From a virus: 24,492 bases of DNA. Where the stretch lies: positions 1 to 24,492 of the IMG/VR virus record IMGVR_UViG_3300025781_000071; one strand, given 5' to 3'. Below, piece after piece: positions 10,151 to 10,197 of the stretch (the first letter of the stretch is position 1; each line of letters begins with the position of its first letter). A program made the translations under genes and the position numbers. The notes beneath the pieces are model-generated. The model ran no database searches and was not told the origin of the DNA. It saw only the letters and a list, made by a program, of their open reading frames with translations.

Positions 10151-10171
10151 AATGCTCCGTATAGGAGCATT
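10151..10171 (-). promoter_or_regulatory. Inverted repeat covering the ribosome site of dNMP kinase
   Basis: Perfect 8-bp arms AATGCTCC and GGAGCATT with a 5-nt loop (TATAC on the minus strand). The second arm contains the GGAG ribosome site 7 nt before the ATG. The first arm overlaps the -10 element at 10169-10174, so RNA begun at that promoter (about 10162) would lack most of the first arm. Confidence 0.75.
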
Positions 10172-10197
10172 ATTGCACAAATAGCACACTCTGTCAA
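10169..10197 (-). promoter_or_regulatory. Sigma70-type promoter for dNMP kinase (TTGACA-17-AATAAT)
   Basis: On the minus strand TTGACA (10197-10192) is followed by exactly 17 bp and AATAAT (10174-10169). That is a perfect -35 and a 5 of 6 -10, placing the RNA start about 15 nt before the ATG. Use of host RNA polymerase fits an early nucleotide-metabolism gene. Confidence 0.8.

Follow-up and report, generated by a model that had tools for sequence, protein, structure and literature searches.

The question raised by this locus is how a gene with an early-type promoter could be kept silent when late RNA is read into it from upstream. The window, which is the whole stretch of DNA analysed here, is a 24,492-base virus record from the group of Rak2-like, T4-related jumbo phages; a megablast search of it against phages gave no match. 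Relatives of its kinase and gp13 genes were found in CBB, GAP32, 121Q, BF, Munch, PA5oct, Phosso, and Atu_ph07. A sequence-only reading had placed the late gp13 unit upstream of the deoxynucleoside monophosphate (dNMP) kinase gene, which serves the production of DNA building blocks. Our analysis showed that gp13 does lie upstream of the kinase, but it is not the direct neighbour, as an ORF of 128 aa intervenes (Table 1). In nearly all of the fetched isolates the next gene after the kinase is that for the tail sheath, and most of them have gp13 no more than about two genes upstream of the kinase. An ORF of 126 aa with paired cysteines (window positions 9145-9525, plus strand) is convergent with the kinase and overlaps its 3' end; it had no PHROG or Pfam match.

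Table 1. Positions of the features discussed, in the window unless T4 is named.
Feature	Position	Strand	Basis
dNMP kinase gene, 213 aa	9506..10147	-	PHROG 139, E 4e-53; Pfam DNMK PF21448, 45.5 bits (cut-off 27.1)
Kinase start codon ATG	10147-10145	-	
Second arm GGAGCATT, holding the SD GGAG (10158-10155)	10151..10158	-	inverted repeat and fold
Hairpin loop TATAC	10159..10163	-	inverted repeat
Predicted transcription start zone (about 10162), in the hairpin loop	10160..10164	-	placed 7 nt after the -10
First arm AATGCTCC; shares bases with the -10 and lies entirely ahead of the predicted +1	10164..10171	-	inverted repeat
-10 hexamer AATAAT, with TG before it (10177-10176)	10169..10174	-	sequence inspection and promoter scan
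-35 hexamer TTGACA	10192..10197	-	sequence inspection and promoter scan
ORF of 128 aa, no known family, between gp13 and kinase	10201..10587	-	ORF list and profile search
gp13-like neck protein (head-tail adaptor Ad2), upstream structural gene	10592..11503	-	PHROG 211, E 2.5e-31
Inverted repeat over gp13 late promoter, SD, and start: forward (T4-type) version	11502..11526	-	repeat search
ATAAATA, late-promoter-like motif of gp13	11524..11530	-	TAAATA in 126/128 gp13 starts
T4 alt.-3, nrdC.8, alc, regB, (ndd.4), denV, modB, motB.2 (L488-L492)	123032, 53885, 136275, 62740, 166749, 65355, 13130, 8161	-	

The two features on which the reading was built are both present on the minus strand: the inverted repeat hides the GGAG of the kinase in its second arm, and its first arm overlaps the -10 of a TTGACA-17-AATAAT promoter. 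This promoter agrees with 11 of 12 consensus bases and is the best promoter-like match in window positions 1-12500, although that region holds no excess of such matches as a class (21 vs 22.8 +/- 5.4 expected). The position of a transcription start relative to the -10 follows from promoter geometry. RNA from this promoter would lack the first arm, as had been proposed, but it would lack the whole arm and not only most of it.

The window is enriched in perfect 8-bp inverted repeats whose loops are 3-12 long (20 overlapping matches vs 1-8 in 8 shuffles), and three groups of them sit on gene starts, namely those of the kinase, gp13, and a gene at 22983. The stem at the kinase had a p of 0.05 with shuffling restricted to what lies upstream of the RBS and of 0.008 with shuffling of all 60 nt. 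The folding energy z was -1.5 or -0.35, depending on the stretch folded, and plain folding z-scores were set aside as an uninformative test of the window. The predicted opening cost of the RBS was about 3.7 in its own RNA vs 6.5-14.5 in read-through RNA, the latter varying with the upstream length included; with 45 nt upstream it was 6.99 (the same 5' region in L002), which equals the shuffle mean of 6.85. The window by itself is unremarkable, and it is the comparison of related sequences that makes the case strong.

The neighbouring genes differ in promoter class. The late-type motif TAAATA was found within 60 nt of the start in 126/128 gp13 and 123/126 sheath genes but in only 1 of 162 kinases, while the sigma70-type motif TTGAC-N16..18-TAnnnT was found in 142/162 kinases, 0/128 gp13 genes, and 1/126 sheath genes. 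An RNA that carries both arms would most likely be late read-through from gp13. The 353-kb relative G002 contains 48 strict TTGAC-TATAAT sites vs 4 in the control, with a dense run at 310-337 kb amid many short ORFs; its kinase promoter, at 261.9 kb, stands apart from this run.

Five IMG/VR scans and 17 isolated-phage regions yielded 344 loci with a kinase start, of which the 212 with a unique 5' region and at least 60 nt upstream were kept; 209 of them fall in four test groups and 3 in none. Of the 212, 196 have gp13 upstream on the kinase strand. A promoter of at least moderate score was present in 181 of the 212, compared with 25% of shuffles, and its -10 ended 19-23 nt before the ATG in 151 of these 181, so that the leader holds little beyond an SD. 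A sigma70-type promoter together with an SD leader was found in 162/212. We then asked for the best contiguous stem over the SD-to-ATG region, shuffling only the sequence upstream of it. The stem reached p<=0.05 in 102 of the 162 promoter-bearing kinases (mean z -2.3) and missed it in the other 60; none of the 25 kinases that are preceded by another ORF and lack a promoter of their own reached it (z +0.5). Relatives with gp13 upstream retain the repeat through compensating changes, and kinases lacking their own promoter do not have it. In the kinases of named jumbo phage isolates the stem was found in 1/16, that of Atu_ph07, with 16 pairs. The PA5oct kinase has neither promoter nor gap, and the kinases of the large genomes G002 and G004, tested singly, gave p values of 0.32 and 0.30.

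In the 118 kinases with stem p<=0.10, the first arm lay in the -10 or discriminator (90), in the -35 and spacer (19), or in the spacer (9), and the SD was covered in 112. The arm lay wholly before the predicted +1 in 99 of the 118 and ended at -1 in 53. This placement is partly forced by the short leader, but an arm that is conserved and yet absent from own-promoter RNA means that selection must act on the read-through RNA. Over the 162 kinases, the predicted cost of opening the RBS was 2.45 kcal/mol in own RNA, 10.4 in read-through RNA, and 6.1 with shuffled upstream sequence, and the read-through cost exceeded the shuffle mean in 152. Two per-locus tests were rejected. The duplex energy between promoter DNA and leader was too blunt (55/174 with p<=0.05, median 0.18), and the RBS opening cost with shuffled upstream (92/174 with p<=0.05) was heavily dependent on composition.

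Two further arrangements were seen at kinase starts. Four loci (L127, L150, L193, L325) have a predicted leaderless kinase message whose promoter DNA could pair with the start codon, and among them only L127 reaches p 0.05; in these leaderless kinases together with those of L040 and L073 the start codon looked paired, but only 1/6 had p<=0.05. In L036, L044, L057, L064, and similar loci, an ORF of 173 aa lies between gp13 and the kinase, a TAGACA-17-TATAAT promoter ends 6 nt before its ATG, and the kinase behind it has neither promoter nor hairpin.

We consider it probable that these elements form a promoter-locked translation switch. The sigma70-type early promoter of the kinase would be placed as near to the start codon as the SD allows, with DNA in or just after the promoter complementary to the SD region; in the window this would be the -10 end and the stretch before +1, and in some relatives the -35 or the spacer. 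RNA from the kinase promoter would start past the first arm, form no hairpin, and be translated. RNA begun upstream, at the late promoter of gp13, would have both arms, and would fold so that SD and start are hidden. Synthesis of the kinase would then be confined to the time when its early promoter is active, late RNA yielding none. Covariation, controls, and promoter classes all point the same way as the original proposal that own-promoter RNA would escape while late read-through would fold and go untranslated. The geometry and the G-U bias described below, together with these three, show the basis of the switch at the level of sequence; from it we infer the start site, the block of translation, the share of termination, and the timing.

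The alternative that survives best, though we think it unlikely, is that the hairpin is an intrinsic terminator ending the late gp13 transcript, with the SD inside it only because space is short. In the window's clade T residues do follow the stem (TTTTC in the window, T6 in L004, L138, L175, and others), and a plain terminator precedes the kinase in 9 of 17 isolated jumbo phage records, the one in Munch being annotated. Within 90 nt a terminator-like hairpin was found in 10/162 kinases and a T5+ run in 12/162, but the other 152 promoter-bearing kinases have no such hairpin there, the second arm runs straight into the ATG in most kinases, and arms that lie in the -35 or spacer track the SD. 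Only four T follow the stem of the window itself, whose site is missing from the window's terminator scan list. The ten terminator-like cases are of the window-like GCTC or GCCC type and include L004, whose kinase is 79% identical to that of the window. A terminator before the kinase had been named beforehand as a finding that would refute the idea. Part of the late RNA may indeed also end at this hairpin and the T behind it in the window's clade, which would leave the consequence for the kinase unchanged. We read the hairpin and the plain terminator as two solutions of one need, to keep the kinase off late RNA.

It is considerably less probable that the repeat is a DNA operator, where a repressor bound to the dyad over the -10 and start would shut the early promoter later in infection. 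A dyad overlapping the -10 and +1 is in the usual place for an operator, and the arms are nearly perfect palindromes, but the arm sequences vary among relatives (72 distinct arm pairs in 118 loci, at three positions) and the dyads follow the SD rather than a fixed promoter position. 

The two arms covary, in keeping with the switch. When first arms were swapped among 98 clusters (90% kinase identity), at least 4.5 of 5 positions were paired in 59% of true vs 8% of swapped combinations (z 13.4). Across 49 path-independent sister pairs of the kinase tree with the same register, 34 double changes kept pairing and 2 broke it, while single changes were even (35 kept, 34 broken). With the partner slid by 1-2 positions, 0-5 double changes were kept and 10-15 broken, a comparison biased towards the unslid register since the helices had been chosen by pairing. 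G-T and A-C mismatches mirror each other in a DNA dyad and should be equivalent. Stems scored by Watson-Crick pairs alone contained 33 G-U vs 2 A-C inside, or 107 vs 7 when the next loop-side position was included, compared with ratios of 1.24 and 1.75 to 1 after first arms were permuted by column; the sequences in these counts, as in the arm swaps, are related and hence not independent. The excess of G-U over A-C indicates that the selected molecule is the sense RNA. As judged by comparison of relatives, the hairpin is real and well supported.

The hairpin might also make read-through RNA a target for cleavage, by RNase III for instance, and act through decay instead of ribosome access, but we regard this as very improbable. 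With 7-13 bp, the stems at the SD could serve as substrates, yet most of them are short for RNase III, and direct occlusion of the SD requires no extra factor. T4 has an SD-cutting RNase, RegB (PMC3014915), but published work describes structure as protecting from RegB. Least credible is chance complementarity between the A+T-rich promoter and the ATT-ATG start region, for which the borderline p of the window's stem and the partial complementarity of TATAAT to ATTATG might speak, and which at the sequence level is already refuted for the family by the shuffles, arm swaps, sister pairs, and control starts (0/25 and 0/32).

Early-type starts at large, kinases included, showed no excess of hairpins in G002 (0/32), G004 (1/25), or G001 (0/4). 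In G003, 3/9 early-type starts had one, those of the kinase, an ORF of 75 aa, and a MazG-like pyrophosphohydrolase gene that lies directly downstream of large tail-protein-like ORFs of no known family. Among MazG relatives (41 unique of 80 loci), the stem test was positive in 6/9 with a promoter and 1/32 without; two of the six (L459, L460) resemble plain terminators by eye.

Applied to 326 starts of T4, the stem test recovered the known hairpins of e, soc, 49, I-TevI, and I-TevII; it missed the known late hairpin of segB (p 0.67), and I-TevIII was absent from its list. Of the 326 starts, 54 are early-like, and ten sites among these 54 reached p<=0.02. After gene 49, a known late hairpin, and an internal mobD.1 site were set aside, eight were left (Table 1), one of them inside the annotated ndd.4. 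Their hairpins pair early-promoter DNA with the SD and are among the best of all 326 starts. The kinase gene of T4, gene 1, lacks a hairpin (p 0.26), which means that the device is not carried along with the kinase in T4. The view that the T4 logic is reversed in time appears to hold at the kinase as far as sequence can tell, but it is not peculiar to this group, as the reversed form is also present at T4 early genes.

In denV relatives (54 unique of 79 loci) the arms differ in sequence and place and stay paired; 18/31 with an early-like promoter had p<=0.05, as did 5/23 without a recognised early motif. Upstream of denV in 121Q, CBB, and a relative (L514, L517, L522), the early promoter incorporates an intrinsic terminator, with TTGAC inside the terminator hairpin and the T-run in the spacer ahead of the -10. 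The denV region of RaK2 (L516) has a similar look but failed the strict terminator pattern.

The repeat at gp13 is of the forward kind. Stems with p<=0.05 were found in 25/128 gp13 relatives, several with TAAATA in the loop, and the neighbouring gp13 and kinase thus appear to carry mirror-image locks. In 48/128 gp13 starts TAAATA ends 5 nt before the ATG, so that their late messages would be leaderless. At window positions 22982-23007 (minus strand), ATAGTGTA/TACACTAT surround the SD and start of the 22983 gene and a late-like GATAAATA precedes them, which may be another forward-type lock. At 12998-13026 (minus strand) a TTGACA-17-TATAAT promoter matches the consensus at 12/12 positions, and 7 nt separate the end of its -10 from an in-frame ATG (12990); the ORF of 84 aa that begins there, of no known family, is predicted to have a leaderless early message.

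We lean, with less confidence than for the kinase itself, towards the view that T4-like and jumbo phages make general use of promoter-locked translation to insulate their genes. Where genes are densely packed and terminators few, an early gene beside or within other units would carry an anti-SD inside its own promoter, and translation of an RNA would depend on which promoter had made it. Mirror-image versions would serve early genes (kinase, MazG, and T4 alc, regB, denV, and modB) and late genes (gp13, and T4 e and soc), sometimes in neighbouring genes of one genome. Such a system would explain how packed phages keep early proteins off under late read-through without terminators or repressors, and would give a simple sequence test for the temporal class of a gene. 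For T4, the best-studied phage, the prediction is that Alc, RegB, DenV, and ModB come solely from RNA of their own early promoters. The decoupled timing of RNA and protein reported for T4 (PMC9697503) is a further point on which such a system bears.

The hairpin-regulated T4 genes are all late in the account given by the relevant part of a review (PMC3014915). As in those genes (e, soc, 49, I-TevI, and others), the SD or start of the kinase would be hidden in RNA begun upstream, and its own promoter is placed so that the RNA lacks the 5' arm; in the T4 late genes that promoter is late, of the TATAAATA type, and early or middle RNA is blocked, as described in the parts of the sources that concern them (PMC3014915, PMC2988022). 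Unlike them, the kinase has a sigma70-type promoter of its own (in the proportion given above), and it is late RNA that would be blocked. No report of this early-gene direction was found in the open-licence literature, a scope that leaves out older T4 literature and is no proof of novelty; within the same scope there was no description of the hairpins at the T4 early genes.

Seven of the T4 early genes (alc, regB, denV, modB, nrdC.8, alt.-3, and motB.2) are like the kinase in having an arm in early-promoter DNA that is complementary to the SD. They differ in their GTTTAC-type early promoter and in being other genes with other neighbours, and read-through into them would often be middle or extended early RNA. 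The terminator before the kinase in CBB, GAP32, BF, Munch, and XaC1 occupies the same place between gp13 and kinase, and with it, too, late gp13 RNA would not express the kinase; unlike the hairpin, it acts on transcription, stands before the SD, and uses a T-run.

In IS10/Tn10 and IS50/Tn5, read-through RNA hides the RBS of the transposase while RNA from its own promoter is free. Read-through RNA likewise hides the transposase RBS in IS200, according to the part of the source that treats it (PMC3196728). The kinase resembles IS10 and IS50 in that its RBS is predicted to be hidden in read-through and open in its own RNA across the 162 loci, but differs from the transposase safeguard of all three in that the gene is a dNMP kinase, the control would be temporal, and there are no IS features. 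The kinase element is a variant of the RBS-hairpin logic of the T4 late genes and of IS10 and IS50.
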